Positions 40,137 through 63,252 of a stretch of DNA of 64,000 nt are shown here, one piece after another. A program made the position numbers and the translations under genes. Source of the stretch: Paenibacillus polymyxa M1. GTDB taxonomy: Bacteria; Bacillota; Bacilli; Paenibacillales; Paenibacillaceae. The notes beneath the pieces are model-generated. The model searched no databases. It was given only the letters and a program-made list of their open reading frames with translations, and was not told the DNA's origin. Positions within the stretch are counted from its first letter, which is position 1. Each line of letters begins with the position of its first letter. The stretch is from positions 363,001-427,000 of the forward strand of contig NC_017542.1 of NCBI RefSeq assembly GCF_000237325.1, written 5' to 3'.

Positions 40137-40178
40137 GCAGCAAAGGGCGATCCCGCAAGATCGCCATCCCTTTGTTGC
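40137..40178 (-). terminator. Hairpin after the GH94 gene
   Basis: GGCGATC/GATCGCC core with flanking AAAGGG/CCCTTT pairing. It lies between the GH94 stop and the regulator gene, both on the minus strand, and could limit read-through. No strong T-tract. Confidence 0.5.
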
Positions 40179-40211
40179 CTATACCAGATTTCGCTTATGC
40201 ATCATTCGATT

Positions 40212-43652: not shown

Positions 43653-43665
43653 CAAAGGGAACGCC

Positions 43666-45840
43666 TCACTTTCCTGTTTCTTTTACTAACCGAAAACGGC
43701 CTTCTGTAGTATCTCGGCTGTTAGGTCCTGTAAAGACGGCAAATTCACCGCTGTCACTGTCGAAGCTCAAATCTGCATGATGATAGCGCAGCTGAGGCTC
43801 GGTCACTGTAAATTCCACTTCCTGGCTTTCGCCTGGGGCAAGCAGGACTTTGCAGAAATCTTTCAGTTCTTTCATTGGACGAACCGTATCACCGCTGATA
43901 TCACGGACATAGAACTGAACCGTTTCCTCGACTGGACGTGTTCCTGTGTTCGTTACCTGTACTCTAACAGTCAGTTCTTGACCGGGAATAAGGGTATCGC
44001 CGGAAAGCTGTAAGCTGTCATAGGCTACATCGGTGTAGCTCAGGCCATAGCCGAACGGGAATAAAGGTTCGTTCGGTATATCTAGATACTGGGACACATA
44101 GCGTTCTGTCGTGTTCGGATCTAACTGTGGACGTCCTGTATTAAAATGATTGTAATACACAGGCACCTGCCCGACCGATTGCGGGAAGGACATCGTCAGA
44201 CGACCCGTAGGTTCGGCATCACCGTATAACAAATCGGCAATTGCTGCGCCGCCTTCGCCACCAGGGAACCAGGCTTCCAGTACAGCGTCTGCTTCTTCGA
44301 TGACACCGTGCAGATCCAATGGACGACCATTAAACAGTACGGCTACCATTGGCTTATTCAGTGTCTTCAGGCGCTTCACCAATTCCAATTGGGCCTGTGG
44401 CAGGCGAATATTCGAACGGCTGCCTGCTTCACCACTCATATCCGAGCGCTCACCAAGCGCTAATACGATGACCTCTGCTTGACTGGCAGCATGCAGAGCT
44501 TCTGCATATTGCTCCTCTGTTATGTCGTCTACAGAGCATCCTGCCGCTACGGTGAGCAGCGAGGAGGATATTTTCGAATGGAACCCGTCGACAACACGAA
44601 TGGCTTCCTCTTGTGAACCGCTCCACGACCAAGAACCCAAAATATCGCCGCTCTCTGCAAAAGGTCCGATCAATGCAATACGTTGATTGCGATTCAATGG
44701 AAGCACGGAATCATTTTTGAGCAGCACGCATGATTTAATGGCTAGTTCTTTGGCAACCGCACGATGGGCTTCGCAGAACACAACTTCACGTTCACGCTCA
44801 GGGTCTGCGCCGCGTAGCGGATTCTCGAACAAGCCCAGCTTTTGCTTGAGCTTCAATATACGCATCACTGCTTCATCAACGAGTGCTTCATCCAGCTGTC
44901 CGCTGCGAATCAGCTCAGGCAGGTGTCCATTATAGCAGGAGGTCATCATTTCAATATCTACGCCTGCCAGTAATGCTTTCTTTGCTGCCTCCCGCTCATC
45001 TTCGGCGATGCCATGAGGAATAAGCTCTTTGATCGCGGCCCAATCCGAAATGAGTACACCGTCAAATCCCCATTCATCACGAAGCAGATCACGCATCAGG
45101 CGCTTATTGCCCGATGCCGCTACGCCTTCTACGGTATTGAAGGACGTCATCACCATTTCGCAGCCTTCATCTAAAGCAGCTTTGTAGGAGGGGAGATAAT
45201 ACTCTCGCAGCTGCCATGCGGATACATCTACGGTATTGTAATCTCGTCCGCCTTCACCGGCTCCATAGGCAGCAAAGTGCTTCACGCATGCGGCTACCCG
45301 CTCGGTATCATTCGTCAGATCTTTACCCTGAAATCCGCGCACAAACGCACGGGCAAATTGACTGTTGAGATAAGGGTCTTCCCCAGTGGATTCCATTACA
45401 CGACCCCAGCGGGGGTCACGTACCAGATCGACCATAGGAGCGAATGTGACGTGAACACCAGATACGGCTGCTTCCCGGGCAGCGATAGTAGCGCTCTCTT
45501 CTGCAAGTTCCATATCCCATGAGCAACCAATAGCCAGCGGGATCGGGAAAATCGTTTTGAAGCCGTGTACAATATCTGCCATAATTAAAAGCGGAATACC
45601 CAGACGATTTTTACTCAAATGAGCCTGCTGAACACGAATCGCTTCCTGAGCTCCTGCAAGGCCGAGCACGGAACCAACATTGTGAACCGTTTGCTCGGTA
45701 ATGCCGAGAGAAGCCATAGGACCCGTAATTTGGCCCTCTGTACCCGCTTCTTCAAAAAAGCCACCCACAAGCTGTAGCAGTTGGTCAACTTTTTCTTCAA
45801 GCGTCATGTTTTGTAGATAGGAATTCAGGTGTTGTTCCAT
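43666..45840 (-). CDS. GH3 family beta-glucosidase, cytoplasmic
   Basis: 724-residue glycosidase without signal peptide. The GH3 N-terminal barrel has LLIMADIVHGFKTIFPIPLA, DPRWGRVMESTGEDPY, ACVKHFAAYGAGEGGRDYN, and the nucleophile D266 in GVLISDWAA. The second domain is a alpha/beta sandwich (about 380-580, with LGERSDMSGEAGSR). A fibronectin-III-like C-terminal domain includes VTNTGTRPVEETVQFYVRD. ATG 45840 sits 6 nt from GGAGG. It would remove glucose from short oligosaccharides, including the sophorose left by the phosphorylase downstream. The gene pair is divergent from the ABC importer. Confidence 0.92.
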   Translation of the reverse strand: MEQHLNSYLQNMTLEEKVDQLLQLVGGFFEEAGTEGQITGPMASLGITEQTVHNVGSVLGLAGAQEAIRVQQAHLSKNRLGIPLLIMADIVHGFKTIFPIPLAIGCSWDMELAEESATIAAREAAVSGVHVTFAPMVDLVRDPRWGRVMESTGEDPYLNSQFARAFVRGFQGKDLTNDTERVAACVKHFAAYGAGEGGRDYNTVDVSAWQLREYYLPSYKAALDEGCEMVMTSFNTVEGVAASGNKRLMRDLLRDEWGFDGVLISDWAAIKELIPHGIAEDEREAAKKALLAGVDIEMMTSCYNGHLPELIRSGQLDEALVDEAVMRILKLKQKLGLFENPLRGADPEREREVVFCEAHRAVAKELAIKSCVLLKNDSVLPLNRNQRIALIGPFAESGDILGSWSWSGSQEEAIRVVDGFHSKISSSLLTVAAGCSVDDITEEQYAEALHAASQAEVIVLALGERSDMSGEAGSRSNIRLPQAQLELVKRLKTLNKPMVAVLFNGRPLDLHGVIEEADAVLEAWFPGGEGGAAIADLLYGDAEPTGRLTMSFPQSVGQVPVYYNHFNTGRPQLDPNTTERYVSQYLDIPNEPLFPFGYGLSYTDVAYDSLQLSGDTLIPGQELTVRVQVTNTGTRPVEETVQFYVRDISGDTVRPMKELKDFCKVLLAPGESQEVEFTVTEPQLRYHHADLSFDSDSGEFAVFTGPNSRDTTEGRFRLVKETGK

Positions 45841-45979
45841 CATAATCCTCCATAAGCTGTATGGTTGGTAGAACAGCTCTCTTTTTCAAATTCATGAGAT
45901 TTTTTGGATAAGTTGATTCAAAAAAGTGCTGAACAGGCTAATAGCTAGTATAGAAGCATAATATTCTGTTGTATTATTA

Positions 45980-45997
45980 ATCGAAACGTTTCTATTG
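45980..45997. promoter_or_regulatory. LacI-type operator, GH3/GH94 side
   Basis: ATCGAAACGTTTCTATTG; the core GAAACGTTTC is a perfect 10-bp palindrome. An identical 18-bp copy lies at 46173-46190. The 500-nt gap 45845-46344 holds these sites and promoters and no gene I can support. Confidence 0.8.
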
Positions 45998-46139
45998 TTG
46001 AACTCAGTTGGATTATATACGCTTTCAAATGGAGAGTCAAATGCAAAACGGAGGTCTTTTTATAGGATGAGTAGCGTAATAAAGATAAAATAAATGAAAA
46101 AAAGATGCGATTCTAAGTAAACAAAAAATAATATCCCTA

Positions 46140-46190
46140 TTGAATACGGTTTCAATTTGTTCTATAATGACTATCGAAACGTTTCTATTG
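46140..46190 (+). promoter_or_regulatory. Promoter and operator of the ABC importer operon
   Basis: TTGAAT (46140-46145), 17 nt, TATAAT (46163-46168), then the operator ATCGAAACGTTTCTATTG (46173-46190) at the expected transcription start. Binding there would block initiation. The copy at 45980 would serve the divergent enzymes. Confidence 0.75.
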
Positions 46191-46344
46191 ATGAGTATGG
46201 TCCTTAGGCTTTAAACATAATTGTTATAACGGTATGCTTTAACTGCTATGTATTTGCATGTATCAGAATTTTGCAAAACTCATGTATTTGAATCCGTTAT
46301 TATATTGCATGATCGGTAAACAGATCATCTCGGGAGGAATTCGT

Positions 46345-47598
46345 ATGATGAAAAGAACATTGGGGATCATTTTGGCAAGCACCTTATTACTGGGGGGGGC
46401 GTTGGCAGGCTGTTCATCCAAGGATGATTCGTCAGGCAAAGATGCAAATGGCAAGACGACCATCACCATGTGGGGCATGGGAGCGGAAGGAAAGCTGCTG
46501 CCTGAAATTGTAAAAGATTTTGAGAAAGAAAATCCGGATATTCACGTTGATGTACAGGCGTTGCCTTGGGATAACGCTCACGATAAGCTGCTGACAGCAG
46601 TTGCTTCAAAATCCGGGCCGGACGTGGTTCAGTTAGGTACATCATGGGTTCCCGAACTTGCGTCTGCGGGTGCACTAACAGACATCACACCTTATATCAG
46701 CAAATACCCTGAGCTTGAAGCGAAAAATTTCTTCGAGGGCGCTGTGGGTACGGCCCAATTTGAAGGTAAGCCAGTCGCTGTACCTTGGTACACTGAAACG
46801 AGAGTCTTATTCTATCGTTCGGACCTACTGAAACAAGTCGGATATAATGAAGCACCTAAAACGTGGGAGGAACTTTCCGATGCTGCTCAAAAGCTAGCGG
46901 CTCGGGGTAAAGGCAAATATGGTATCTCCTTTAGTGCAAAGGAGCAGTCCATGGGCTTTATGTTTGCTCTCCAGAACGGTTCCAAATTGGTTGACGAGCA
47001 GGGCAATCCGCTGTTCAACCAACCACCGTTTGTAGATGCTGTGAAGTATGTGAATACCTTTTTCCAAAATGGCTCTAACGCAGTGGATATTGGAATTGAT
47101 TCCGTTCAAGGTTTGCAAGGCGAGGGTATCGTTCCAATGTTTATCAGCGGTCCTTTCATGATTAAAGAAATCAAGAGCAAGGCACCAGAATTGGAAGGTA
47201 AGTGGAATATAGCGGAGCTTCCTGGCAAAGTAAACAACCTGTCCGTTTTGGGTGGAGCCAACCTTTCAATTATGAAATTCAGCAAGCACCCAGAGGAGTC
47301 GGCCAAATTCCTGGCTTACATGAGCAAACCAGAAACACAGCTGAAATGGATGGATCTGTCCAGTAACTTGCCTGCGACTACTAAATCGTGGGAAGATGCC
47401 AAACTGAAGAGTGATCCGATGCTTCGGACGATTCGCAAACAGTTGGATCATTCCGCAGCATTGCCGCAACTGGCCGCATGGGAAGAGGTTTCTCAACAAT
47501 TCATCAAGAGCTTCGAACGTATTTACCGCGGTCATGCCGATGTACAGAAGGAAATGGATGACTTTAATCAGCAGGCTGCAAGTATAATGAAAAAATAA
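46345..47598 (+). CDS. Sugar ABC transporter solute-binding lipoprotein, beta-glucan locus
   Basis: 417-residue extracellular lipoprotein. Signal with lipobox LAGC (Cys23), followed by a Ser/Asp/Lys linker and the family 1 binding fold: TTITMWGMGAEGKLLPEIVK, KENPDIHVDVQALPWDNAHD, GPDVVQLGTSWVPELA, and VPMFISGPFMIKEI. ATG 46345 follows GGGAGGAA; the frame from 46258 lacks a binding site. It heads an operon with two permeases, divergent from the GH3/GH94 enzymes and controlled by a matching operator. By analogy with the Listeria locus, whose binding protein prefers sophorooligosaccharides of three or more units, that is the predicted ligand. Confidence 0.88.
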   Translation: MMKRTLGIILASTLLLGGALAGCSSKDDSSGKDANGKTTITMWGMGAEGKLLPEIVKDFEKENPDIHVDVQALPWDNAHDKLLTAVASKSGPDVVQLGTSWVPELASAGALTDITPYISKYPELEAKNFFEGAVGTAQFEGKPVAVPWYTETRVLFYRSDLLKQVGYNEAPKTWEELSDAAQKLAARGKGKYGISFSAKEQSMGFMFALQNGSKLVDEQGNPLFNQPPFVDAVKYVNTFFQNGSNAVDIGIDSVQGLQGEGIVPMFISGPFMIKEIKSKAPELEGKWNIAELPGKVNNLSVLGGANLSIMKFSKHPEESAKFLAYMSKPETQLKWMDLSSNLPATTKSWEDAKLKSDPMLRTIRKQLDHSAALPQLAAWEEVSQQFIKSFERIYRGHADVQKEMDDFNQQAASIMKK

Positions 47599-47634
47599 TG
47601 ATCCATATCCGTCATTGTCAAAGGGAGTGAAGGC

Positions 47635-48519
47635 ATGAAAGGAAGCTCGCAGAAGCTTGCGCCATACTTGTTTATCGGTCCCTCCATCATCCTGTTAACG
47701 CTGTTTTCGTTGTTGCCGATACTACTGGCGCTCGTGATCAGCTTCACGGATATGGATCTGTCCGGACTCGTTAATTATGAAAGTATTCGCTTTATAGGAT
47801 TGGAAAATTACACGAACGTGCTTTTGGACCCTTCCTTTTTGAAGTCCATTGGTAATACGTTGTTCTTTGTCATCATTGGTGTTCCGTTGGTGCTGATATT
47901 TTCGCTCAGCATCGCGATCCTGATTAACATGGGTAAATCACGTGCTTTCAAAATATTCCGCGTCGTGTTCTATCTGCCGTCCGTAACGAATGTAGTTGCG
48001 GTCGCAGTCGTTTGGAGCTATCTGTATAATCCGACGCTTGGATTATTCAACTACGTACTTGGTCTGATGAATTTAGGTCCCGTCCCATGGCTGACCGATC
48101 CAACAGTAGCGAAAATTTCGCTGATTGTGTTAGCGGTTTGGCGGGGCATCGGCTTAAACATGATTATTTTTATTGCGGCTATTAAAGGGATTCCGGGCTC
48201 TTATTATGAAGCGGCACAGCTTGACGGGGCCAATACATGGCAGCAAATTCGTTATATTACGCTTCCGCAGCTTCGTTACGCTATTTTCTTCGTGTCCATC
48301 ACAACGATGATCGGCTGGCTGCAATTTTTCGAGGAACCTTTTGTCATGACCAAAGGGAAACCGCTGGACGGCACGCTAACGGCATCCTTGTTCATTTACA
48401 ATAACGGCTTCCAATTTAGTAAATTCGGGTATGCCGCGGCGGGATCGTTCATTCTGTTCTTTGCGATCATCGCGGTAACGCTGATTCAGTTCCGTTTGCA
48501 AAATAAAGCGGAGTCCTGA
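47635..48519 (+). CDS. Sugar ABC permease, MalF type, beta-glucan locus
   Basis: 294-residue membrane protein, about six transmembrane segments. The EAA loop is YEAAQLDGANTWQQIRYITL. N-terminal KLAPYLFIGPSIILLTLFSL and later WYLLYNP-like SYLYNPTLGLFNY are typical for CUT1. AAAGGGAG precedes the ATG; the gene is 36 nt after the binding-protein gene. It pairs with the next permease. No ATPase gene is in the operon, so a shared ATPase is needed. Confidence 0.9.
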   Translation: MKGSSQKLAPYLFIGPSIILLTLFSLLPILLALVISFTDMDLSGLVNYESIRFIGLENYTNVLLDPSFLKSIGNTLFFVIIGVPLVLIFSLSIAILINMGKSRAFKIFRVVFYLPSVTNVVAVAVVWSYLYNPTLGLFNYVLGLMNLGPVPWLTDPTVAKISLIVLAVWRGIGLNMIIFIAAIKGIPGSYYEAAQLDGANTWQQIRYITLPQLRYAIFFVSITTMIGWLQFFEEPFVMTKGKPLDGTLTASLFIYNNGFQFSKFGYAAAGSFILFFAIIAVTLIQFRLQNKAES

Positions 48520-48537
48520 TAGAGAGAGGTGATGAAC

Positions 48538-49392
48538 GTGAAAACAGCTGTTCAGCAAGCCCGCGCCAATACGCGCAGTGGTGAAAAAACATTTCAATGG
48601 TTCGTGGCGATTCTCCTGACTGTGGGAGGTCTGTTGATGGTGCTGCCTTTTGCGTGGATGATTTTATCCTCCTTTAAGACAGAGGGCGAGGTAACCAAAA
48701 TTCCTCCAACCATCTGGCCGGAGCATTTTACACTGGATAATTTTAAAATCCTATTCGATAGCATGGCGTTTGGAACCTATCTGACGAATACGCTGATCAT
48801 TGTCCTAGCTTCCTTCTTCGGATTATTCCTTAACGCCATGGCGGGTTATGGTTTTGCTAAATTCCAGTTTAAGGGCAAGGGCTTCCTGTTCTATTTGGTG
48901 CTGGCAACCATGATGATTCCAGGTCAAGTGACGATGATTCCCGTCTATTTGATTCTGAACCAGATGGGGTTGACCAACTCTATGCTGGGGATTGTCCTTC
49001 CTGGATTGGTGGGCGCGTTTGCGATCTTCCTCTTCCGGCAGTTCATGTCCGATATCCCAGAAGAACTGCTGGAGGCGACCCGTCTTGATGGAGCAGGTGA
49101 GTTCCGCACTTTTTTACAAATCGTGCTACCCATTTCGACGCCGATTATCGCGGTACAGGCCATCCTGACCTTCATCGGTGGCTGGAACAGCTTCTTATGG
49201 CCGCTCATTATTGCGAACGATGAAAAGCTGTACACCTTGTCCGTCGGTCTGTCACTGCTCAAGGGACAGAACGAAAGTCAATTTGCTCTGCAAATGGCGG
49301 GCTCGACCTTCATGGTCGTTCCGATCATGATTATCTTCATTATTTTCCAAAAGTATATTATCGAGAATTATACGATTTCGGGGATTAAGTAG
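48538..49392 (+). CDS. Sugar ABC permease, MalG type, beta-glucan locus
   Basis: About 284 residues with six transmembrane segments. The EAA loop is EELLEATRLDGAGEFRTFLQ; MMIPGQVTMIPVYLIL and GGWNSFLWPLI are MalG landmarks, and the tail ends YTISGIK. I place the start at GTG 48538, 8 nt after AGAGAGG; ATG 48532 and GTG 48529 are too close to it. It is the last gene of the importer operon, followed by a strong terminator at 49420. Confidence 0.9.
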   Translation: MKTAVQQARANTRSGEKTFQWFVAILLTVGGLLMVLPFAWMILSSFKTEGEVTKIPPTIWPEHFTLDNFKILFDSMAFGTYLTNTLIIVLASFFGLFLNAMAGYGFAKFQFKGKGFLFYLVLATMMIPGQVTMIPVYLILNQMGLTNSMLGIVLPGLVGAFAIFLFRQFMSDIPEELLEATRLDGAGEFRTFLQIVLPISTPIIAVQAILTFIGGWNSFLWPLIIANDEKLYTLSVGLSLLKGQNESQFALQMAGSTFMVVPIMIIFIIFQKYIIENYTISGIK

Positions 49393-49419
49393 GGGGATAA
49401 TAGGTGAATTGATAAAAAC

Positions 49420-49472
49420 ACAAAAACGGAGGACTTCCTAGTTTGAGCAAAAGAAGTCCTCCGTTTTTTGTG
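49420..49472 (+). terminator. Strong terminator ending the importer operon
   Basis: ACAAAAACGGAGGACTTC pairs with GAAGTCCTCCGTTTTTTGT around a 15-nt loop. It also marks the left edge of the AT-rich island that follows. Confidence 0.9.
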
Positions 49473-49554
49473 TATAAAAAAAATTCCTGGTCAGCTCATA
49501 TTCATTCTTAGAGAAGTTGCATCAGGATTTTGTTTATATATGGGGAACGGAAAT

Positions 49555-49623
49555 ATGAAAAAGTTAGAATTCAGATTGAGTGTTACGAAGGTGAATAAAA
49601 GTTTCGGTCTCCAGAATCATTAG
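49555..49623 (+). CDS. Very short open frame, possible peptide remnant
   Basis: 22 codons, ATG 49555 to TAG 49621-49623, with GGGGAACGGAAAT upstream. The peptide is basic (starts MKKLEFRLSVTKVNKSF) and lies about 130 nt before a degenerate peptide-maturase gene, where a precursor gene would be expected. It has no Cys, Ser or Gly-rich core. It may be a leader remnant or chance. Nothing else is supported between 49473 and 49752. Confidence 0.25.
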   Translation: MKKLEFRLSVTKVNKSFGLQNH

Positions 49624-49752
49624 GGTATGCATTACATTAACAACGATCGGCTTTTTTCAGCAAAGTGAACTATACTTTTTTTATATTTATTTGAAAATAT
49701 TTTAAAATAATAGGTTAACAAAATTTATATAATTACTTCACAAAAAGTATAG

Positions 49753-50306
49753 AGGGTAACGAATACATATAGTATGACAACGAACGGCACCTTGATTTCC
49801 AAAGAAATTGAAAACTTCTTATTAGATCATCATGTTTCTATTCAGATAGGTCTACATGGTGATCAAATGACGCACGATTTCAATCGATATTATCAGAACA
49901 GAAAAGGTGTGGAGCGGTCTCGCATATGCTTGCCGTTGATGTGCATGGTAATCTTTATCCTTGTCAACGATTTGTTAATGAAAAGGATTACTCTTTAGGA
50001 AATGTAAGGGAAGGGATGGATGTAAGAAAGAAGAGTGGCATGCTTAGTGAGATGCGTTTAGAGAAGAGAACTGTATGCGGAGAATGTTGGGCTAAGAATC
50101 TATGTGGTGGAGGTTGTCCTCAAGAAAATATGGTGCTTAGTGGTTCAATTAATGAGCCAGTGGATAAATACTGTAACTTTACTCGTAGTGCAATAATGGA
50201 TTGTATGAAATTGTATTTACGATTAACTAAAGAAGACAAGAAAAACCTGTTCTCTGCTAAGCGGCAGCGAGAGCAACTATTGGAGGATGCCTCATTTGAC
50301 AATTGA
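49753..50306 (+). pseudogene. Radical SAM/SPASM peptide maturase, degenerate
   Basis: Remnant of an iron-sulphur enzyme that modifies ribosomal peptides. The first frame encodes an internal strand-helix of the radical SAM barrel (YSMTTNGTLISKEIENFLLD, IQIGLHGDQMTHDFNRYYQN). The N-terminal CxxxCxxC cluster is absent. After about 49905 the reading switches frame and continues as a SPASM domain: CGAVSHMLAVDVHGNLYPCQ, SLGNVREGMD, then CGECWAKNLCGGGCPQ and a terminal Cys pair. The middle of the barrel, perhaps 150 residues, is missing at the join, so a deletion removed it. The protein cannot be active. It overlaps the start of the ATPase gene that follows, as in a formerly coupled operon. Confidence 0.82.
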
Positions 50307-51174
50307 TATTCAAGCTTTAAGTAAGTCATATGGTTCTCACCAAGTACTTAACGAGCTTCATTTTCACATTGATAATGGTATATTCGGACTGCTCGGAGAC
50401 AATGGAGCGGGTAAGACCACTTTAATGAAAATTCTTGCCACTTTACTTAGATTCGACCGAGGGGAAGTTGAAATATTCGGACATTCTTTGAAAAAAGAAC
50501 CTGATGCTATTCGTTCTTTACTAGGTTACTTGCCTCAGTATTTTGATTTTTTTCCAAATGTGACTATTTTGGAATCCATGAACTATTTTGCGGCTTTAAA
50601 AGGTATTCAAGGTAAACATCATATTCAAGAGGAGACATCACAGCGATTAATTGAGGTGGGACTTATCGATCAAGTTGATAAAAAAATAAAACAGCTGTCT
50701 GGGGGAATGAAGCAGCGCTTAGGAATTGCTCAAGCTATGTTAGGACAGCCTAAGTTGTTAATTGTTGATGAGCCTACGGTTGGACTGGACCCCAAAGAAC
50801 GAATTGCTTTTCGAAACTTGCTTCAAAATTATGGAGAAGACAGGATTATATTGTTATCTACTCATATTGTTCCTGACGTTTCAAGCACATGTGACAAACT
50901 ACTCGTTTTAAAAGAAGGCCGTTGTCTGTACCAAGGGGCTATAGACGATATGATTCGAACTGTCGAGGGTAAAGTGTGGTTGGTTGATGTTGGAAAGCGT
51001 CAATTGGAACAATTAAGCCAACAAGCTCGAATCACTTCCATTGTGCGGAAGGAAGGAAGAGTTCAGGCTCGATTATTGTGTAACTACCCTCCAGATTGTT
51101 GTACAGAAGTCACACCCGAAACGGCTAATCTTGAGGATGCGTATCTGTACATTTCCGATCCGGAGGAGAGTTAG
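50296..51174 (+). CDS. ABC transporter ATP-binding protein, peptide-cluster type
   Basis: 292-residue ATPase of the BcrA/ABC-2 class. Walker A GDNGAGKTT (34-42), Q-loop GYLPQYFDFFP, signature LSGGMKQR, Walker B LLIVDEPTVGLD, H-loop STHIV. The C-terminal 80 residues form the regulatory tail usual for this class. TTG 50296 is 9 nt after GGAGG; ATG 50287 abuts the site. It overlaps the end of the broken radical SAM gene by 11 nt and is followed, 4 nt later, by the first membrane subunit. The frame is intact, so transport or immunity may still work although peptide maturation is lost. Confidence 0.88.
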   Translation: MTIDIQALSKSYGSHQVLNELHFHIDNGIFGLLGDNGAGKTTLMKILATLLRFDRGEVEIFGHSLKKEPDAIRSLLGYLPQYFDFFPNVTILESMNYFAALKGIQGKHHIQEETSQRLIEVGLIDQVDKKIKQLSGGMKQRLGIAQAMLGQPKLLIVDEPTVGLDPKERIAFRNLLQNYGEDRIILLSTHIVPDVSSTCDKLLVLKEGRCLYQGAIDDMIRTVEGKVWLVDVGKRQLEQLSQQARITSIVRKEGRVQARLLCNYPPDCCTEVTPETANLEDAYLYISDPEES

Positions 51175-51178
51175 CAGA

Positions 51179-51868
51179 ATGGGACAAGTAATCAGAGCCC
51201 TAGTTCAATTTGAAGTTTTGCTTATGAAAAAGAGTGTAGTGTTTTTTATAGCACTAACGTTCTCTTGTTTTTTAATTCCTTTATTTTTATATCTAGGAGC
51301 AGGAAATAAGAATAACACGTTATGGATATTTTTGCATCATGGACAAATGTTCTTTACCATATTACTAATGCCGTTAATGTATTCTGTTCTTTATGATGGC
51401 GAGAAGCAAAAAATGATCTCTTCTGTTATTATGCCTAAATTGCCTAAAGGAGCCCAATATTTTTATTGTAAGAGTTGTGTATTATGGGGAGTGGTTTGCT
51501 TATTTCAATTTGTCGCTTTAGCTATATTTTGTGTGGTTCAATGGACGACTCATGGTAAGGCTCCATTCTTGATACTGCTTCATCTAACAGTAGCAGGTGT
51601 AGCAACTATGGGATATTCTGTTCAAATTACTGTCATATTGAACTTGCTCTTACGTAAACAACTGTATGTGAACATTGTAATGCTCGTTTACCTTTTAATC
51701 AGTATTACTATCAACTTGCCTTACATTTCAATCTGGTTTAATCCAGATTGGATTATTTCCAATTTCTTCACACAGTCGTTTGCTTTTGGGCGAGTATTCC
51801 TATTTTTGCTTATGTGGGTATTGATGAAAGTCAGTAATCATCTATGGATGGCGAGGGTACAAGAATGA
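51179..51868 (+). CDS. ABC-2-type membrane protein, first subunit
   Basis: 229 residues, six hydrophobic segments, no signal peptidase site. The first half has VVFFIALTFSCFLIPLFLYL and the polar stretch YDGEKQKMISSVIMPKLPKG, which fits the cytoplasmic loop of ABC-2 permeases. ATG 51179 follows GGAGGAGAG. The gene ends in an ATGA overlap with the next one. No close named relative is recognised. Codon use is clearly AT-richer than in the sugar operons on either side. Confidence 0.72.
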   Translation: MGQVIRALVQFEVLLMKKSVVFFIALTFSCFLIPLFLYLGAGNKNNTLWIFLHHGQMFFTILLMPLMYSVLYDGEKQKMISSVIMPKLPKGAQYFYCKSCVLWGVVCLFQFVALAIFCVVQWTTHGKAPFLILLHLTVAGVATMGYSVQITVILNLLLRKQLYVNIVMLVYLLISITINLPYISIWFNPDWIISNFFTQSFAFGRVFLFLLMWVLMKVSNHLWMARVQE

Positions 51869-53010
51869 ATGGAATTATAGTTCGTTTCTGGCTACAGCTT
51901 TTACTTCGAAGAGAACAAGCAGTAACCTTGCTGGTTTCCTTTAGTGTGGTTCTTTTATTCAATTTAATAATGAATGAAGGTATTGCAATAACTTATAGTG
52001 TTAACTTGTTATTTGTAGCTTTTTTTTCTTTACAGATTGCGAGTATACACAATCGTAATCATACAGAACCGTATATATATATTTCTGTCTTTCCTAATTA
52101 TCGTCTAATCGCTTACCAGCTTTATGTTTCTTTAATTCTTTCGTTTCCTCTCTTGCTCATGATGGTAGGACTTTTATGGAAATCATTCGCTGATGTATCA
52201 TTATGGAATTTGGTTATCATTGTATTTTTTTCTAGTGTTTTTTCATCGATGTTGGGTCTCTTCCTGGGGCAGGTAGTAAAGCATTATGGGTTGGCCTTCA
52301 CTTTTCTCATTGCTTTTTACCTTCCTATAGGTTTAGTTTCCTGGTCTTTTAATGAAAAGTTACGTTACATATCTCCTGTAGTGAATATATTCAACCCCTA
52401 TATGATCAACTGGCGAAATCTCTTTGGACTCTTAGGCTGTAGTTTATTATTTTACGGATTAGGCACATTGTTATCCAGTCGGCGCGGAGGCGGCAAAAAG
52501 TCTATAATCCCTTGGATTAGTACGGTCCTTGCTTGTAGTATATTGATGGGCGTATGGGGATATGAGAGGCTATTTAATGAGAATGTACAGACATCGTCGT
52601 TTCAAAAAATAACTGTGGGACAAACACAAGTAGAGTATAAGGGGATTAGTTCGTATCAGGCTAGGCAATTTGCCACCCTTTTTGAAACGCTGTATCAAGT
52701 GGCTAAGAAAAAGGAGACACACCCGATTCACTATACCTTGGAAATCACCCGAATACACTCCATGTCATCGTTCGAGCCGAAAATAATAGTGCAAAATCAT
52801 AATAAACTTCAAATCAATATTTATTCAAATAAGCTTTTAGAGTTTAATTTCGGAATGGATTGGGCGAGTAAGTGGATTGATTACATTTTGCCACAATTGA
52901 CCCACTTGTCCAATGAGCAAGTTGATGCTTTTAAACGCCTCAAAAATGAAATTATTTTGGAAGTTAGAGAAAAAAATCCCGAAAATATCTATACAATTCA
53001 GGGTGACTGA
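51865..53010 (+). CDS. Membrane protein with extracytoplasmic C-terminal domain
   Basis: 381 residues. About six hydrophobic segments (residues 20-215) resemble an ABC-2 permease. A further segment at IIPWISTVLACSILMGVWGY leads into a soluble domain of roughly 130 residues (about 250-381), probably outside the membrane. That domain starts FQKITVGQTQVEYKGISSYQ and contains two beta-rich halves and a final helix LSNEQVDAFKRLKNEIILEV. I do not recognise it. ATG 51865 overlaps the preceding stop. The three genes ATPase, permease, permease-plus-domain form one coupled unit. Confidence 0.7.
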   Translation: MNGIIVRFWLQLLLRREQAVTLLVSFSVVLLFNLIMNEGIAITYSVNLLFVAFFSLQIASIHNRNHTEPYIYISVFPNYRLIAYQLYVSLILSFPLLLMMVGLLWKSFADVSLWNLVIIVFFSSVFSSMLGLFLGQVVKHYGLAFTFLIAFYLPIGLVSWSFNEKLRYISPVVNIFNPYMINWRNLFGLLGCSLLFYGLGTLLSSRRGGGKKSIIPWISTVLACSILMGVWGYERLFNENVQTSSFQKITVGQTQVEYKGISSYQARQFATLFETLYQVAKKKETHPIHYTLEITRIHSMSSFEPKIIVQNHNKLQINIYSNKLLEFNFGMDWASKWIDYILPQLTHLSNEQVDAFKRLKNEIILEVREKNPENIYTIQGD

Positions 53011-53073
53011 GAGCTAAAATAGTGAGATTTCATGAAGAACGAATAATAGTAGATAAAGAAAGGGATGGAATGC

Positions 53074-54919
53074 ATGGAACGTGAGGCAGACCATTTGAAT
53101 ATAAGAGCTATATTTCATTCATTCCAATATTGGCCGAAGTTAACTAAGTTACTATGGAGTACAGAACCTATCTACTTTATTATCATTATTTTTGGCTATC
53201 TACTAAAAGGAACACTCCCGATTGCTAACCTTCTTTCCATACAGTATTTGGTTTCTGAATTTGAGACTAACACGGTATGGCATAAGCTTCAAATCAGCGC
53301 AGTTTTCCCTGTAATTATCGTGATGTTTTCTAGTTTGCTTATTTCAAGTTTAATTGAATACTCTGATAAATTGTTCCAAATTTCACTGATAAATAAATTA
53401 CAAACATTAATAGTATCACAAGCATCAACATTTAATCTTGCGGATTTTGAGTCCGCAAGTACACAATCAGCTCAAAAGAGTACAGAACGACTCAATAGAT
53501 AGACCTATTCAGATCTATAAAGAACTCATTAATTTGTTAAGTTCCATGGTTACGTTATGCTCTAGTATTGCCATTTTAATAGCATTCAGATGGTGGATAT
53601 TACTCATTCTTGTTGTTTCCCCCCTGGCATCTTTTTATTCTTTATTGAGATTCACACAAATTCAATATGTAGCCAAGAAAAAACGGGCTCCTTTACAACG
53701 TAAATCCAGGTATATTAATTACTTATTGACTAATGAGAAGTCTTTTAAAGAAATCCTATTGTATCAACTTAGTGACTACTTTACAGCAAAATATAAGGAC
53801 ATTTTTGATGTTTTCTACAAAGAGGATAAGTATTTAGCCAAAAAACGTATTGCGTTATATTTGTCTTTTCAAGTAATAAGTACATTATTTATAGCCATTG
53901 CTTTGATTATGATTATACAAATATCATGGAAAGAAGAATTTCTCGTTGGCAGCATTTATGCATTAGTTCAAGCAGTATTATTAGCTAATCAAAATATTAA
54001 CACAGTATCTCAAGGATTGATTTCATTGTGTGATCATAATCTGTATCTAGATGAATTATTCGCTTTTTTTAACATAAAACCTAAACAAGACAGTTCTAGA
54101 ATGTTGCTAAGAGAGTCAGGTATACAAGCTGATTCAACGATAGAATGCATAGAATTTAAGAATGTTTCATTTGCTTACCCAGATCAAAAAGAATTGGCTC
54201 TCAAAGATATAAGTTTTAAAATGAAACGTGGTGAATCTCTTGCTCTAGTGGGCAGGAATGGATCAGGGAAAACAACAGTGATAAAACTTTTAACGGGGTT
54301 ATATGAAGACTTTGAAGGAGATATTTTAATCAATTCTATCTCGGTTCGAAATTACAATAAAGAAATGCTTTACAAGAAAGTAGGTGTTATATTTCAAGAT
54401 TTTGTCCAATTTGATTTTTCAGTAAGAGAAAATATAGGTTTTGGCAGTATAGGGGATCTTGAACTTGATACCAGGATGTGGGAATCGGCGCAACATACAG
54501 GAGTAGATTCGGTAATACGAGATTTGCCTAATCAATTAGAACAACAGCTAGGAAGAAACTTCGAAGGGGGGATACAGCTTTCAGGAGGGCAGTGGCAAAA
54601 GATTGCTATATCGAGAGCGCTCTTCAAAGATGCTGACGTTTATGTATTAGATGAGCCTAGTTCATTTCTTGATCCAGAATCGGAAAAACAAGTATTTAAA
54701 CAATTTCAAAAATTCGTTGATAATAGACTATGCCTCTACATATCTCATCGCTATACCTCTGTTTTATATGCAGATAAAATTTTAGTTATGGAAAAGGGTC
54801 AGATAGTAGAAGGAGGAACCCACCAAGAACTAATTGAAAATAGAGGGTTTTACTATAATTTATTTTCTGACGAAATTCATACATTCCAGAAAGCGCTAGT
54901 TATTAATGATGTACGCTAA
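53074..54919 (+). pseudogene. ABC exporter (TMD-NBD) split by a frameshift
   Basis: Two overlapping frames encode one ABC half-transporter of about 610 residues. The first (53074-53502) carries the N-terminal membrane part to LADFESAST; the second resumes at NQLKRVQNDSIDRPIQIYKE and holds the remaining membrane helices plus the ATPase domain: Walker A VGRNGSGKTT, signature LSGGQWQK, Walker B VYVLDEPSSFLD, H-loop ISHR. The join is near 53461 in AGTACACAATC. Adding one AC unit (ACAC to ACACAC) would restore the usual spacing FE-8 residues-QL seen in exporters, so loss of a dinucleotide repeat is the likely cause. ATG 53074 has AAAGGG upstream. There is no peptidase domain. Programmed shifting or a sequencing error are alternatives. 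Confidence 0.8.
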
Positions 54920-54988
54920 CTGTGTATTAAGATTCTGGCAAATAGTGAGACTGCGAACAGAATTGTTTTTTACCTTATGAGAAGTAGA

Positions 54989-55257
54989 CTATAACAAAAA
55001 AGCGGAGCTTCCCTTTGAGAGGCCCTGCTTTTGGGCTTCACATTGGACATTTTCTATATGAGTTAGCCAATATTGATGGGATAGTGCACGAATCTTTCTT
55101 TTCAGTCTGTAGATGCGGGTCGTTATCGCCGTAACTGAAATATTATATTTGTCAGCGAGGAAGGACATAGACAGCGGAGGTTGCTTACATATAACAAATT
55201 GATAGACGATAAAGGACTGCTTAACAGTGAAAAAGGAATGAAGAATTTGTGAAAAGC
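54989..55257 (-). pseudogene. C-terminal fragment of an HTH regulator-like protein
   Basis: The minus strand has an open frame ending in TAG (54991-54989) with a protein-like stretch: SFIVYQFVICKQPPLSMSFL, then ADKYNISVTAITTRIYRLKR, KIRALSHQYWL. It resembles a helix-turn-helix and its C-terminal flank. Only a Met at 55168 is available as start, giving 59 residues without a ribosome binding site, so this is more likely a truncated gene. It marks the right end of the AT-rich island. The exact family is not recognised. Confidence 0.45.
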
Positions 55258-55269
55258 GATGATAAAATA

Positions 55270-55296
55270 TACAAAAACATACAAAAAAACCGATAT
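55270..55296 (+). promoter_or_regulatory. Sigma-D-like promoter of the FlxA-like gene
   Basis: TACA (55270-55273), 15 nt, ACCGATAT (55289-55296). The same ACCGATAT -10 with 15-nt spacing precedes the chemotaxis-type gene at 4299. E. coli flxA is a flagellar sigma-factor gene, which fits. Confidence 0.45.
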
Positions 55297-55338
55297 ACCT
55301 CTAGAATTACTATTTAGAAAAGAAATGGAGGTTTTAAG

Positions 55339-56121
55339 ATGAATGTATCTTTTACATCATCTCACCAATCGTCGTTCCATACCACAGATAACAACCGACT
55401 TGAACTACGGCATCCCCTTTCCCCTCAGGCTGAAAGGAAGAGTATAGGCAAGCCGCAAAACAAGATTATTAAGCAATTGATAGAGCAGAAGCAAAATCTG
55501 ATGGAGAGGCGTTCGGACTATATAAGTAATGCTCTAAAACGTGGCCTCGGTTCGGAAGCTGTAAAAGCCGAAATGGAAAAGATAGATAAGCAGATTCAAC
55601 AAATTGACGAGAATATTCAGAAGCAATCAATAGAAGAACAAAAAAAAGCATTTGGAATGGATGAGGAAAGTAAAAAAGAAGCCCAGGAAGATAAAAAGGA
55701 ACAATATACGCACAAGACTGCAGAGGAGCAGAAGCAAAGTCTCATGACTTATACGATGCATAGTATTGTATCAGCAAACAACCAGCTAAAGAATTCCAAA
55801 ATCACTAAAAGGGCACAAATTACATTAGAAAGCGAAGCTAAAGGTTGGGAAAACACTAACCCTTCAAGATCAACTACTTTGCGTGAGAAGGCAGAAGGCC
55901 TTAATGGGAAAATTATGGAGATTGCCTCAAATATCAATGAGTGCATTAGAAAAGCAGTGAATGAGGAAGCGACGATAATAGATCGAGATGAATCAAAGGA
56001 TGAGAAAGAATCAAGTATAGAGGTTGGTAGGGTGTGGACTGAACAAGAGATCAATGCCTATGTGGATTCGGCTAAAGACGAAGCTAAGAATGCAGGTGTG
56101 AAGATTAATATTGCAGTTTAA
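55339..56121 (+). CDS. FlxA-like coiled-coil protein
   Basis: 260 residues, highly charged, no signal peptide or membrane segment. Residues 35-110 form a long coiled coil with FlxA-like spacing: KIIKQLIEQKQNLMERRSDY, a short acidic turn, then EKIDKQIQQIDENIQKQSIE. A second helical region (about 135-205) and an acidic C terminus follow. FlxA-like proteins are small coiled-coil proteins of unknown function associated with motility regulons. GGAGG lies before the ATG. The preceding promoter has the sigma-D -10 element. The gene is AT-rich like its left neighbours, but intact. Confidence 0.6.
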   Translation: MNVSFTSSHQSSFHTTDNNRLELRHPLSPQAERKSIGKPQNKIIKQLIEQKQNLMERRSDYISNALKRGLGSEAVKAEMEKIDKQIQQIDENIQKQSIEEQKKAFGMDEESKKEAQEDKKEQYTHKTAEEQKQSLMTYTMHSIVSANNQLKNSKITKRAQITLESEAKGWENTNPSRSTTLREKAEGLNGKIMEIASNINECIRKAVNEEATIIDRDESKDEKESSIEVGRVWTEQEINAYVDSAKDEAKNAGVKINIAV

Positions 56122-56263
56122 TCGGACTATTATTGCTATTTAGTAAAGAGGCTATTTGCTCAATAGGTTTGTTTATAAAATGAAGTGTTCAAAAATACGT
56201 AACCAAATGCTTATCGTTTATTATTAAATAGTTAATACATATATTAAGTATTTAATAATAATA

Positions 56264-56292
56264 TTGACTATGCTAATTACGGTGTGTTATAT
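56264..56292 (+). promoter_or_regulatory. Probable promoter of the arabinofuranosidase gene
   Basis: TTGACT (56264-56269), 17 nt, TTATAT (56287-56292). TGGAAGCGTTAATA, a cre-like site with two mismatches, follows at 56293-56306. The remaining 56122-56368 is AT-rich and holds no gene. Confidence 0.5.
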
Positions 56293-56368
56293 TGGAAGCG
56301 TTAATAAAATGGCTTGTTAATTTTAGGTACAACAAATTTTATTTTCGCATTCAGAGAGGATGGTTTAG

Positions 56369-57883
<1,515 letters not shown>

Positions 57884-57919
57884 TTCTCTTTCTAAAAGGA
57901 ACGGACTGAGTTATATCTA

Positions 57920-57974
57920 AAAAGCCCGCATTCTCTCTTGTAAGGCTACTACAAGAGCAGGAATGCGGGTTTTT
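57920..57974 (+). terminator. Terminator after abfA
   Basis: AAAGCCCGCATTC and GAATGCGGGTTTTT form the outer stem, with an inner CTCTTGTA/TACAAGAG stem. Confidence 0.9.
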
Positions 57975-58035
57975 GTATAAAAATGAGCCATTTGTCCCTC
58001 CATCGATATAGTGCTCAAAAGGAAGAGGTAATTCC

Positions 58036-58055
58036 AATAAATATTAATATTTATT
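58036..58055. repeat. 20-bp AT-only palindrome between abfA and the Hsp90-like gene
   Basis: AATAAATATT followed by AATATTTATT is a perfect palindrome. A second hairpin ACCCAG/CTGGGT lies at 58132-58154. No gene is supported between 57975 and 58298. Confidence 0.5.
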
Positions 58056-58298
58056 CCTAAATTTAACTAGGCAAAGATGATCCTTAATCACTAAGTGTTC
58101 GTGCCTCGTACATTTTTATGAAGTTAATTAGACCCAGTGTCCACACTCCTGGGTGAAAAAAGACCCTGTTATACCGTTGTCAATGAATTGATATCTGAAA
58201 TGAAGGTGTGTAATCCGACTTAAATCCACGTTATACTTTAAAAGATAGCTATTCTAAATAAAAGATGGCTGTAGCATTTCGTGAAAGGAATGATCTCT

Positions 58299-60194
58299 AT
58301 GAGTCAAACAGACGAATATCGTTTTCAAGTAAATTTGGGCGGCATGATTGATATTTTGGCCAATCATTTATATAGCAGTCCACGGGTGTTTATACGTGAA
58401 ATACTACAAAATGCAACAGATGCGATCACGGCTCGCAAGGAGCTACGAAAGACTGAAGCTGAAAGTAGATCATTGAAAGAAGACAATACCCTTGAAGATA
58501 CAGTTTCTGAGAGTAACGACTATGAAGGCAAAGTCATCGTAGAGCTATCCGGTGCCGGGGATCAGCAGGTATTGATGATTCAGGATAACGGTATTGGATT
58601 GTCTGAAGAAGACATTCACCGGTTTCTGTCGATCATCGGGCAGTCTTCCAAGAAGGGGGCTGATTTGCTAACCTCGGAGACTTCATTTATCGGGCGTTTT
58701 GGGATTGGCTTGCTGTCTTGTTTTATGGTGAGCGATGAAATTGTAGTACTGACCCGTTCGGTGAAGGAAGGCATCTCTATGGAATGGAGAGGGAAGCCGG
58801 ATGGGACGTATACGATTCGTCGATTAGAGACTGAGCTGCCTATAGGGACGCAAATTTATTTGCGCTGTAAGCCGGGGAGCGAGTTTTATTATGAGCCAGC
58901 GCAGGTGAAAGACTCCTTATTTTATTATGGAGCCTTGCTGCCATATCCTGTCCTGCTGTCTGTAGACGGGGAGACTAAGCAGGTCAATCTTCCATCGACA
59001 AGCTGGATGCAGGACCCGGAACAATTACGGAGTCGACGCGGTGAGGTGCTGGATTTAGGCTATCGCCTAATGGGTGAGCGCTTCAGTGATTTTATACCGC
59101 TGCGGACGGCATCGGGCAGAACAGGCGGGATTGCATTCATTTTGCCTCGCAGTGTTAATCTGAACAGCAAGCGGCTGCATCGGGTGTATCTGAAGCATAT
59201 GCTCGTGTCCGACAAAGCGGAAAATGTATTGCCAGAATGGGCATTTTTCATTAAAAGCCTGATTTGGACAGACGAATTGCAACCAACGGCATCTCGTGAA
59301 TACTTTTATGAAAATGAGCAGCTTGATGCGGTTCGTTCCGAATTGGGAACCTGTATTCGAGAAGAACTGCTTCGCATGGCGGAATATGAGCCAGACCGCT
59401 TGCAGCACTGGATTCGTTTGCACGAGCTATCCATGAAGGCGCTCGCGGTCGAGGATGATGAATTTCTGCGGATTATGCACCGCTGGTTTTCCTTCGAAAG
59501 TACTTTTGGGCGGCGCGAGCTGAGTGAACTGATCCGAGAGGCGGGCGGGCGTCCGCTCCATTACACGGCGACCGTGGATGAGTATCGCCAGATTACGCAT
59601 GTGGCGGCAGCGCAATCGATGCTGGTGATCAACGGCGGATATATCTATGATTCAGAAATTTTGGATAAGCTGCACTGGATCGACGCTACCCTGCAAACAG
59701 AGCGACTCAGCCCTGAGGATGTATCTTTATCATTTACCGGGTTGACGCAGGAAGAGCACACCAAGTATTACGATGTGCTACGTGTGATGGATGCTGCTTT
59801 GCAGCCGATGCGCTGCCGTGCTGAGTTGAAGCGTTTTGAGCCTGCGAGCTTGCCTGTGCTTTACACCATTTCACAGGATGCACTAACCTTGCGCTCCATG
59901 GAACACACAGTTGAAGAGACCACTTCGCTTTTTTCCAATGTGCTCGATAGTCTAAAAGCGGGAGTCCAGCAGAACGCGGGCTATTCGACCTTGTATTTTA
60001 ATTTAAGCAACCCGGTAGTGGCGCGGATTTTTGAAGCTACCGATACACAGATGATTACGGCTGCAACAGAAATGATGTATGTGAATGCGCTTATGATGGG
60101 TCACTATCCGATGAACCGCAGTGAGCTAGGGCTGATGAACCGGAGTGTGCTGCATTTTATCAATTGGGGATTAGGGAACGGACAGAATACGTAA
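58299..60194 (+). CDS. Divergent Hsp90 family chaperone
   Basis: About 631 residues. The N-terminal GHKL ATPase domain has E34 and N38 (FIREILQNATDAITA), D96 (QDNGIGLSEEDI), and GRFGIGLLSCFM at 132-143, as in HtpG/Hsp90. The middle domain follows (LGYRLMGERFSDFIPLRTA, then LNSKRLHRVYLKHMLVSD, and SREYFYE with a conserved Arg). The C-terminal dimerisation part is shorter and unlike ordinary HtpG, ending FINWGLGNGQN. The usual NSSDAxDK reads NATDAITA. It is probably not the housekeeping HtpG but the second Hsp90-like type seen in some Gram-positives. ATG 58299 follows GAAAGGA. The TPR-like gene starts 24 nt downstream. Confidence 0.88.
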   Translation: MSQTDEYRFQVNLGGMIDILANHLYSSPRVFIREILQNATDAITARKELRKTEAESRSLKEDNTLEDTVSESNDYEGKVIVELSGAGDQQVLMIQDNGIGLSEEDIHRFLSIIGQSSKKGADLLTSETSFIGRFGIGLLSCFMVSDEIVVLTRSVKEGISMEWRGKPDGTYTIRRLETELPIGTQIYLRCKPGSEFYYEPAQVKDSLFYYGALLPYPVLLSVDGETKQVNLPSTSWMQDPEQLRSRRGEVLDLGYRLMGERFSDFIPLRTASGRTGGIAFILPRSVNLNSKRLHRVYLKHMLVSDKAENVLPEWAFFIKSLIWTDELQPTASREYFYENEQLDAVRSELGTCIREELLRMAEYEPDRLQHWIRLHELSMKALAVEDDEFLRIMHRWFSFESTFGRRELSELIREAGGRPLHYTATVDEYRQITHVAAAQSMLVINGGYIYDSEILDKLHWIDATLQTERLSPEDVSLSFTGLTQEEHTKYYDVLRVMDAALQPMRCRAELKRFEPASLPVLYTISQDALTLRSMEHTVEETTSLFSNVLDSLKAGVQQNAGYSTLYFNLSNPVVARIFEATDTQMITAATEMMYVNALMMGHYPMNRSELGLMNRSVLHFINWGLGNGQNT

Positions 60195-60218
60195 TTGCGT
60201 AATTAAAGGAGGATTCAA

Positions 60219-61280
60219 ATGGAAGAGACGATATATGAAATGATGGAGCAGGCGCAGGATATGCCCGGAGGGGCGGCAAAGCTGGCGATTCTGGAAGAGG
60301 CTGTTCGCCTGGCGGATACCTCAGGTTTGAAGGAGCTCGCTTATGAAATTCGGGGAGAGATTGTAGACTGTGCTATTTTTAACGGATATCCATTGAAGTC
60401 GCTGATTGCTTTTTCATGGCAGCTGGGTCAATTTGACCAAAATCCAGAGGAATACGACCCCGTTGAGCTGTTGTGGAACTATAAATGGATACTTGGAAAG
60501 GTGTGCAGTTTTCCGAATATATCAAAAACTCAAATCGAGGATCTGGTAGAGGATATGCGCAGACGTTATGCTGAATACGGGTATAATGAGCGACCATATT
60601 ACTATTATAAGTTCCGCATCGCGATGGACATGGGTGAACTGGATGAAGCACGGCGGTATCTGGATATGTTCCGCGTAATTGAGCCAGACAGTATGAGTGA
60701 TTGTGAAGCCTGTGAGCAGAGCCAGATGGTGCGATTCTATTACTTGACCGGAGAAGACGAGCAGGCGCTTGCCGTGGCAAAACCGATTTTATCGGGACGG
60801 ATGAGATGTGCAGAAGTGCCGCATGTGACGCTCTCGCAGGTGCTATTGCCGCTGTATCGTCAAGGCGAGGTTGATCAGGCGAAGGAGCAGTATCGCAAAG
60901 GCTATCGCCTGGTTCGTGATGACCGTGACTTCCTGAAAACGATAGCAGAGCATATTGAGTATTTGACGGTTGCAAATCCGATTGAAGGAATCGGAGTGGT
61001 GGAACGTCATTTGCACATCGCATTGGACTATGAGAGCGGATTGGAGCAAATGTATTTTTACGCAGCGATGGTAGGGCTGCTGCAAAAGCTGGATACTTCG
61101 AGAAAACTTCGTTTGATTCGGATGCCTGCATCTTTTGAATGGGGCAAACAGGAACGTACGTTAGAAGAGATCATTGCGTACTTCAGACCACTGGCAGAGT
61201 CTGCGGCAGCTGAATTTGACCGACGGAATGGGAATGCATTTTATTCGAAATGGATTGGGAAGATTGTTCAACCGGCGTAG
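60219..61280 (+). CDS. TPR-like protein linked to the Hsp90-like gene
   Basis: 353 residues, cytoplasmic, all helical. Repeated helix-turn-helix units of about 34-40 residues are visible: AKLAILEEAVRLADTSGLKE, ELDEARRYLDMFRVIEPDSM, VRFYYLTGEDEQALAVAKPI, LPLYRQGEVDQAKEQYRKGY and VVERHLHIALDYESGLEQMY. AAAGGAGG precedes the ATG, 24 nt after the chaperone gene, so they form an operon. TPR proteins are the usual Hsp90 co-chaperones in eukaryotes; here the pairing suggests a dedicated client adaptor. No C-terminal MEEVD-like docking motif is seen in the chaperone, so the mode of contact would differ. Confidence 0.8.
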   Translation: MEETIYEMMEQAQDMPGGAAKLAILEEAVRLADTSGLKELAYEIRGEIVDCAIFNGYPLKSLIAFSWQLGQFDQNPEEYDPVELLWNYKWILGKVCSFPNISKTQIEDLVEDMRRRYAEYGYNERPYYYYKFRIAMDMGELDEARRYLDMFRVIEPDSMSDCEACEQSQMVRFYYLTGEDEQALAVAKPILSGRMRCAEVPHVTLSQVLLPLYRQGEVDQAKEQYRKGYRLVRDDRDFLKTIAEHIEYLTVANPIEGIGVVERHLHIALDYESGLEQMYFYAAMVGLLQKLDTSRKLRLIRMPASFEWGKQERTLEEIIAYFRPLAESAAAEFDRRNGNAFYSKWIGKIVQPA

Positions 61281-61370
61281 AAGAACAGGCGACTGTGGCG
61301 AATATTTTATACAGCCCAAACAATGAACGAGTAGAATATTCTTGTTTGAAATGACAGGAGGGATGATATC

Positions 61371-62117: not shown

Positions 62118-62185
62118 GAGGAAGACGCAGTAAACCTACAGCTAAGGATTGTAGGGAAGTAGATGTAGCTATGTATTAAAAGAAA

Positions 62186-62231
62186 AAAGACTCTCCTACG
62201 TACTCGCTTTCACGAGACAAGGAGAGTCTTT
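62186..62231 (+). terminator. Terminator after the phosphodiesterase gene
   Basis: AAAGACTCTCC and GGAGAGTCTTT pair around a loop containing ACTCG/CGAGA; eight or more T follow. Confidence 0.9.
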
Positions 62232-62282
62232 TTTTTTGGTTTGAGCCGAAGTGAATGTCATCACGACGATTTTGATTCCGTT

Positions 62283-63110: not shown

Positions 63111-63252
63111 AGAGGCTTTTCCTCCTTAGTTTCGGCCGGGCGACCGCGTAAATTCCGATGCTCTGTACTTTTACATTGTACAAGTTTATGTGCTTAACCA
63201 GCTACTTTCGTGATTTCACAACATGATTGGATTTCGGTAGGAGGAAATTTGC

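Follow-up and report, generated by a model that had tools for sequence, protein, structure and literature searches.

An AT-rich island of Paenibacillus polymyxa M1 carrying a damaged radical SAM peptide cluster with an intact ATPase/permease trio

Anatomy of the island

We analyzed a stretch of 64,000 nucleotides from the genome of Paenibacillus polymyxa M1 (NC_017542.1, positions 363,001 to 427,000; hereafter, the window) and focused on an AT-rich island that lies between a beta-glucan importer and a FlxA-like gene and carries a damaged radical S-adenosylmethionine (SAM) peptide cluster. The genome (G000 in the comparisons below; the window is G000:C1:363001-427000) is 6.23 Mb in two contigs and is 100% complete. 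A computed profile bore out the shift in base composition reported in a preliminary description of the island: the GC content is 0.353 at 49400-55330, versus 0.483 (40000-49400) and 0.477 (56369-64000) in the flanks, with reduced GC continuing to ~56.2 kb. Because isolated 1-kb stretches elsewhere in the window fall to 0.362 (27.0-28.0 kb), the distinctive feature of the island is the 6-7 kb length of low GC. The damaged cluster itself spans 49.6-54.9 kb at ~35% GC. The three intact relatives that were measured are equally AT-rich (0.355-0.363), so low GC marks the cluster itself, and we rejected it as a signature of decay. The features of the cluster are as follows.

49597..49763, no strand: upstream region of the former precursor gene, aligned to G027 (locus L044) 5799-5965
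49763..49764, no strand: first deletion junction, 878 bp absent relative to G027
49764..49908, plus strand: middle fragment of a PapB-type maturase, 145 bp, with an NCBIfam match
49908..49909, no strand: second deletion junction, 325 bp absent relative to G027, frame shifted
49909..50306, plus strand: C-terminal SPASM fragment of the maturase (open reading frame (ORF) 49926-50306), NF047865 at 96.1 bits, PF13186
50287..51174, plus strand: ATP-binding cassette (ABC) ATPase of the trio, intact, PF00005, free of internal stops
51179..51868, plus strand: permease 1 of the trio, intact, 90-97% identity in four same-genus relatives
51844..53010, plus strand: second permease of the trio (permease 2), intact, membrane part ABC-2-like
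52576..53007, plus strand: probably extracellular C-terminal domain of permease 2, fold possibly like that of M1 peptidases, motif YSNKxx[ED]FNxG
53065..54919, plus strand: ABC exporter with fused transmembrane and nucleotide-binding domains (TMD-NBD), frameshifted, ORFs 53065-53502 and 53438-54919

This anatomy and the losses can be read directly from the comparison with relatives. The retained upstream DNA stops ~56 bp before the precursor start (6022 in G027 L044), and the 878-bp deletion removed the precursor together with maturase codons 1-184, including the CxxxCxxC motif (the iron-sulphur core). The middle fragment of the maturase has two private nonsynonymous changes, both within an SLDGD motif common to four relatives, and the SPASM fragment shares 98% identity with the G019 maturase and 97% with that of G027. 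For both maturase pieces the top NCBIfam match is NF047865, rSAM_PapB (51.5 and 96.1 bits). The exporter, which is one uninterrupted frame of 615-618 amino acids in G019, G027, G045 and G061, is broken in the window by a small frameshifting deletion near 53460.

Neither a precursor with C-x3-D/E repeats nor any other Cys-rich ORF was found at 48-57 kb of the window; the precursor DNA of G019 matched the window at chance level only (18 bp, E 0.58, at 10.6 kb), and a second PapB-type maturase was not found in the genome. With the precursor absent and both maturase and exporter broken, G000 has no functional producer, and the damage, the open trio and the loss of production thus stand as they had been described. 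The region upstream of the precursor is retained, so the trio may still be transcribed. Rfam gave no match at the gathering threshold in 49000-56500. A phage-defence reading was rejected, as the PADLOC matches were generic ATPase and radical SAM parts only.

Intact clusters in related genomes

In a same-genus sample of 74 other genomes, one per species, the whole cluster was directly observed at the same site in four: G019 (P. ottowii MS2379), G027, G045 (Paenibacillus sp. BJ-4) and G061. The gene order is a TTG-start precursor, the maturase (462-474 amino acids), the trio and the exporter (615-618 amino acids). The precursor adjoining the full maturase, which the preliminary description had proposed to look for, is a 51-amino-acid ORF with six Cys in each of these relatives, five of them in a C-x3-D/E motif. 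Among all listed precursor ORFs, 15 of 15 had five or six of six Cys in this motif, in a scan that demanded at least three. The maturase of G019 scored above the cut-off of NF047865 (434.2 versus 340 bits), and that of G045 has a stop that removes its last ~12 codons. The window-type precursors fell below the cut-off of 30 of the freyrasin_like model NF037957 (22.3 in G019 and 23.3 in G027), whereas those of freyrasin-type clusters reached 65.2, 62.3 and 54.4 bits. As the intact relatives are peptide maturases, neither outcome that had been named as refuting a radical SAM peptide cluster (the same truncated genes conserved as units in relatives, or intact relatives that are not peptide maturases) occurred among these genomes.

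The cluster was likewise found in G222 and G240, from another genus, and a full cluster is present in Lysinibacillus boronitolerans. When intact clusters of three types were compared, including the latter, the trio was present and open in 13 of 13, and all 13 also had a separate TMD-NBD exporter.

Variation in the number of precursor genes was seen in two further genomes. Paenibacillus caseinilyticus (L058, 7491-7826) has two adjoining PapA-like precursor genes with similar cores ahead of one maturase. Oceanirhabdus sp. W0125-5 (L061, 9555-10762) has three successive Cys-rich PapA-like precursor ORFs after a PapB-like maturase, with exporter and ATPase/permease genes behind them.

The ATPase and its two permeases

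Permease 1 of the window had no Pfam or NCBIfam match. The C-terminal domain of permease 2 (~140 residues) remotely resembles M1 aminopeptidase catalytic domains, a similarity for which Foldseek returned nothing at E<=0.001, and the HExxH zinc motif was absent from this domain in all 14 sequences compared. Neither structural model had a Foldseek match at that threshold; a remote fold likeness of permease 2 to PmtCD and NosFY was seen, and nearly all the matched ranges exclude the C-terminal domain. In the LanFEG immunity ATPases of lantibiotic producers an E-loop replaces the Q-loop. The window ATPase, inspected by eye in translation, has Gln at the expected place of the Q-loop and hence not the LanFEG E-loop.

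Recurrent loss of producer genes

Searches beyond the genus covered a family sample of 394 genomes and an order sample of 392 genomes, drawn evenly; at most 4-6 candidates were scored per genome, and misses and weak matches were only partly listed. Maturase loci were counted above 500 bits (the next score was 264) and freyrasin-type permease loci above 380 bits. Weak matches to permease p of the freyrasin-type trio (its two permeases are hereafter p and q), present in 165 of the 394 genomes at E<=0.001 and mostly generic ABC-2 permeases, were excluded.

Among the matches listed, homologues of permease 2 occurred in 14 of the 394 family genomes, nine with a full-length PapB-type maturase (G011, G019, G027, G041, G045, G055, G061, G222 and G240) and five without (G000, G008, G010, G020 and G387). 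In the 392 order genomes, a single permease 2 match from outside the family was listed, a weak one of partial length (G411, 1.5e-9). Lysinibacillus boronitolerans, whose full cluster is described above, belongs to the collection of named genomes. The maturase search gave 16 loci above threshold in the 394 genomes, of which 15 are full length or nearly so, and the trio accompanies 12 of these 15.

Damage to the producer genes recurs, as seen directly in the genomes compared. A sister type of the cluster is intact in G011 (Paenibacillus sp. JJ-223), G041 and G055 and damaged in G010, G020 and G008. The G020 junction sets the region upstream of the precursor directly against the final ~57 bp of the exporter. 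What G010 retains is a 70-bp upstream piece and ~13 bp from the 3' end of the exporter, which taken alone is weaker evidence. Both deletions end just ahead of the trio. At a freyrasin-type cluster, G007 lost the precursor and 141 N-terminal maturase codons and kept the exporter and the trio. The trios of G010, G020 and G007 are free of internal stops. Counting G000, four of the six damaged clusters with producer remnants thus have an open trio; the other two are G008 and G018. In G387 and G140 a trio occurs with no producer.

Joint divergence of precursor and trio

The two freyrasin-type producers G025 and G026 have nearly the same maturase (97% identical, synonymous divergence (dS) 0.05) and exporter (96%, dS 0.12), versus a dS of 1.30 for the precursor, 0.59 for the ATPase, 0.45 for permease q and 0.69 for permease p. 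Along their alignment, identity is 69-75% in the 600 columns preceding the maturase and rises abruptly to 93-100% inside it. As the precursor adjoins the trio, a single exchanged block accounts for the joint divergence, and such a block of precursor plus trio is what a peptide-immunity pair would predict.

In the tree of permease p, two clades are supported (98/99 and 97/96). One comprises the producer G025 and the orphan trios of G000 and G019; the other comprises the producer G026 and the orphans of G018, G027 and G045. The ATPase tree was mostly unresolved and did not reproduce these clades.

Orphan trios at the freyrasin-type site

At the freyrasin-type site (hereafter, site F), the producer genes of G025 and G026 are flanked by an oxidoreductase gene on one side and the trio on the other, and G000, G019, G027 and G045 have the trio alone. 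The freyrasin-type permease was found at 10 loci in nine genomes; three of these have a full-length maturase, one a truncated maturase (G007) and six none. The second locus of G000 (L147, G000:C1:5631000-5650000) is an orphan freyrasin-type trio without precursor, maturase or exporter. In G140, from another genus (L151, G140:C1:496000-515000), an orphan freyrasin-type trio stands beside a putative CRISPR array and cas genes, as judged by eye.

The four open orphans at site F are stop-free, with pairwise dS of 0.08-0.54 and ratios of nonsynonymous to synonymous divergence (omega) of 0.08-0.28. A private-substitution test rejected neutrality in each (P 6.6e-5 in G000, 9.9e-6 in G027, 1.1e-7 in G019 and 1.2e-4 in G045); this is a simple site count, in which neither transition bias nor recombination is considered, and it gave similar values for producers. 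The orphan trios at site F thus show signs of purifying selection.

Remnants of another cluster type at the same site

Two features lie beyond the exporter of the window.

55055..55168, minus strand: C-terminal stub of a sigma factor, 38 amino acids, 84% identity with residues 158-195 of the complete G045 protein
55339..56121, plus strand: FlxA-like gene, which borders the other side of a CcpM-type cluster in G007, G018, G025, G062 and G063

The full sigma gene, in whose G025 homologue Sigma70_r2 was found, adjoins a second radical SAM cluster at the window site in G007, G018, G025, G062, G063 and G045. In G007 this CcpM-type cluster passes the cut-offs for CcpM (598 versus 500 bits), the TIGR04066 protein (422 versus 200) and the CLI_3235 precursor (37.3 versus 26). 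Its ABC gene is split in G025, and a distant version occurs in G013. The window has no CcpM maturase, TIGR04066 protein or CLI_3235 precursor, only the sigma stub and the FlxA-like gene. Judged from gene content, it holds stubs bordering two different radical SAM peptide clusters, at a site that hosts both types. The gene set given in the preliminary description (maturase remnant, ATPase, two membrane proteins and exporter) was therefore recovered except for its helix-turn-helix fragment, which is the sigma stub and belongs with the second cluster.

The importer flank (>=85% identity) is shared by 14 genomes. The window-type cluster or its wreck is present in G000, G019, G027, G045 and G061, and G018 is the sixth, with a different wreck; no cluster remnant was detected in the stretches examined of the remaining eight (blastn E<=1e-5).

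Interpretation and alternatives

The island is probably a PapB-type (freyrasin-like) ranthipeptide cluster that was wrecked recently, its production ended by deletion and its trio left behind as immunity or resistance. The maturase of the intact relatives would link each precursor Cys to the Asp or Glu four positions on, which we take to be the chemistry of PapB, and the TMD-NBD transporter would export the product. The peptide would harm relatives, and the ATPase/permease trio would shield the producer from it by preventing its entry into the membrane. In G000 the deletions stopped production, and the trio, which remained, would be kept as resistance. The preliminary description had proposed that immunity was kept: the observation of a retained trio was confirmed, and the interpretation as immunity is supported by the trio-retaining wrecks of G010, G020 and G007, by the orphan trio elsewhere in G000 and by the joint divergence of precursor and trio. 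The stop-free orphans of site F, the two allele clades of permease p, each with one producer and several orphans, and the NCBIfam matches of permease p to the lantibiotic immunity permeases MutG and MutE also speak for it.

Several observations weigh against this reading. When the curated immunity models TIGR03740, TIGR03732 and TIGR03733 were used, the window ATPase scored below cut-off (142.2 versus 309.75) and the window permeases had no match; the MutG and MutE matches of freyrasin-type permease p likewise fall short of the thresholds (32.2 versus 117.2 and 25.8 versus 145.2). Three full-length PapB-like maturases (G205, G127 and G232) lack such a trio; they form a branch at ~40% identity and are accompanied by two TMD-NBD transporters. 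G008 kept the precursor with ATPase and permease 1 broken, and at the window site G018 kept a precursor gene and lost the trio. At site F, the trio of G018 has one permease broken and G059 retains only scraps. The list of loci with a trio only came from a search that used the trio as bait. The orphan junctions at site F share one upstream region with no producer remnant inside, so we rejected these orphans as proven losses; the direction may be either loss there or gain in G025 and G026. In the window, the trio (7 synonymous and 5 nonsynonymous private changes, ratio of nonsynonymous to synonymous changes per site (pN/pS) 0.20) differs little from the dead exporter (15 synonymous and 14 nonsynonymous, pN/pS 0.25). 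The losses are thus too recent to show selection, and the window ratio was rejected as proof of kept immunity.

That similarity, together with the few private changes of the trio and the broken or lost trios of G008, G018 and G059, would fit plain ongoing decay, in which all of the cluster is being lost and the trio has simply not had time to acquire lesions. We consider this unlikely, given that the trio is open in most of the damaged clusters with producer remnants, that the deletions of G010 and G020 end just before it, and that the site-F orphans are open in four species despite dS of up to 0.54, at omega no higher than 0.28. Alternatively, the trio might serve in accessory export or general transport and lie in peptide clusters by chance. 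Exporters such as PmtCD share the fold of permease 2, and freyrasin-type trio loci without a whole producer outnumber those with one; yet every intact cluster compared already has its separate exporter, and the exporter takes no part in the joint change of precursor and trio, which makes this explanation improbable. Assembly or sequencing errors, finally, could be considered for a lesion as small as the exporter frameshift. They hardly come into question in a complete genome of two contigs, where the junctions of the 878- and 325-bp losses are clean and private changes occur in an otherwise common motif of the middle maturase piece.

A broader scheme can be put forward tentatively. PapA-type ranthipeptides might be antagonistic between close relatives with allele-specific immunity, the precursor and trio being exchanged as a unit, with maturase and exporter left unchanged. 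Non-producers, such as G000 at two loci, would keep matched orphan trios as resistance, and permease 2 of the window type might catch the cross-linked peptide with its extracellular, catalytically dead M1-peptidase-like domain. To our knowledge, the cellular role of freyrasin-type ranthipeptides has not been established. The recurrence of wrecks with the trio kept suggests that such peptides may be weapons, and these losses, taken with the way precursor and trio diverge as a pair, point towards a relation of toxin and immunity. The genes concerned can be named: there are two permease allele classes with one producer each, and the carriers of orphan trios are the predicted resistant strains.

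Comparison with known systems

The ABC-2 transporters PmtCD and NosFY, for which structures are solved, share only a remote fold similarity with permease 2. The LanFEG lantibiotic immunity transporters (MutF/E/G, EpiE) have the same arrangement of one ATPase and two separate permeases beside peptide genes; the window trio differs in its sub-cut-off scores, in the ~140-residue C-terminal domain of permease 2 and in the unmatched permease 1. Radical SAM bacteriocin clusters of the CcpM/CLI_3235 type occupy the same site in G007, G018, G025, G062, G063 and G045, and that of G007 passes TIGR04068, TIGR04066 and TIGR04065, whereas the window has only the sigma tail and the FlxA-like gene.

Freyrasin/PapA-PapB ranthipeptide clusters (NF037957, NF047865) differ from the window type in several respects. 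The window-type precursors score below the freyrasin model cut-off, the window-type trio lies downstream in the same direction whereas the freyrasin-type trio is divergent, the permeases of the two types did not match each other in the searches made, and the producer genes of the window are broken. The two types have in common a maturase above the model cut-off (in G019), a Cys-x3-Asp/Glu precursor, an ABC exporter, and an ATPase with two permeases nearby.

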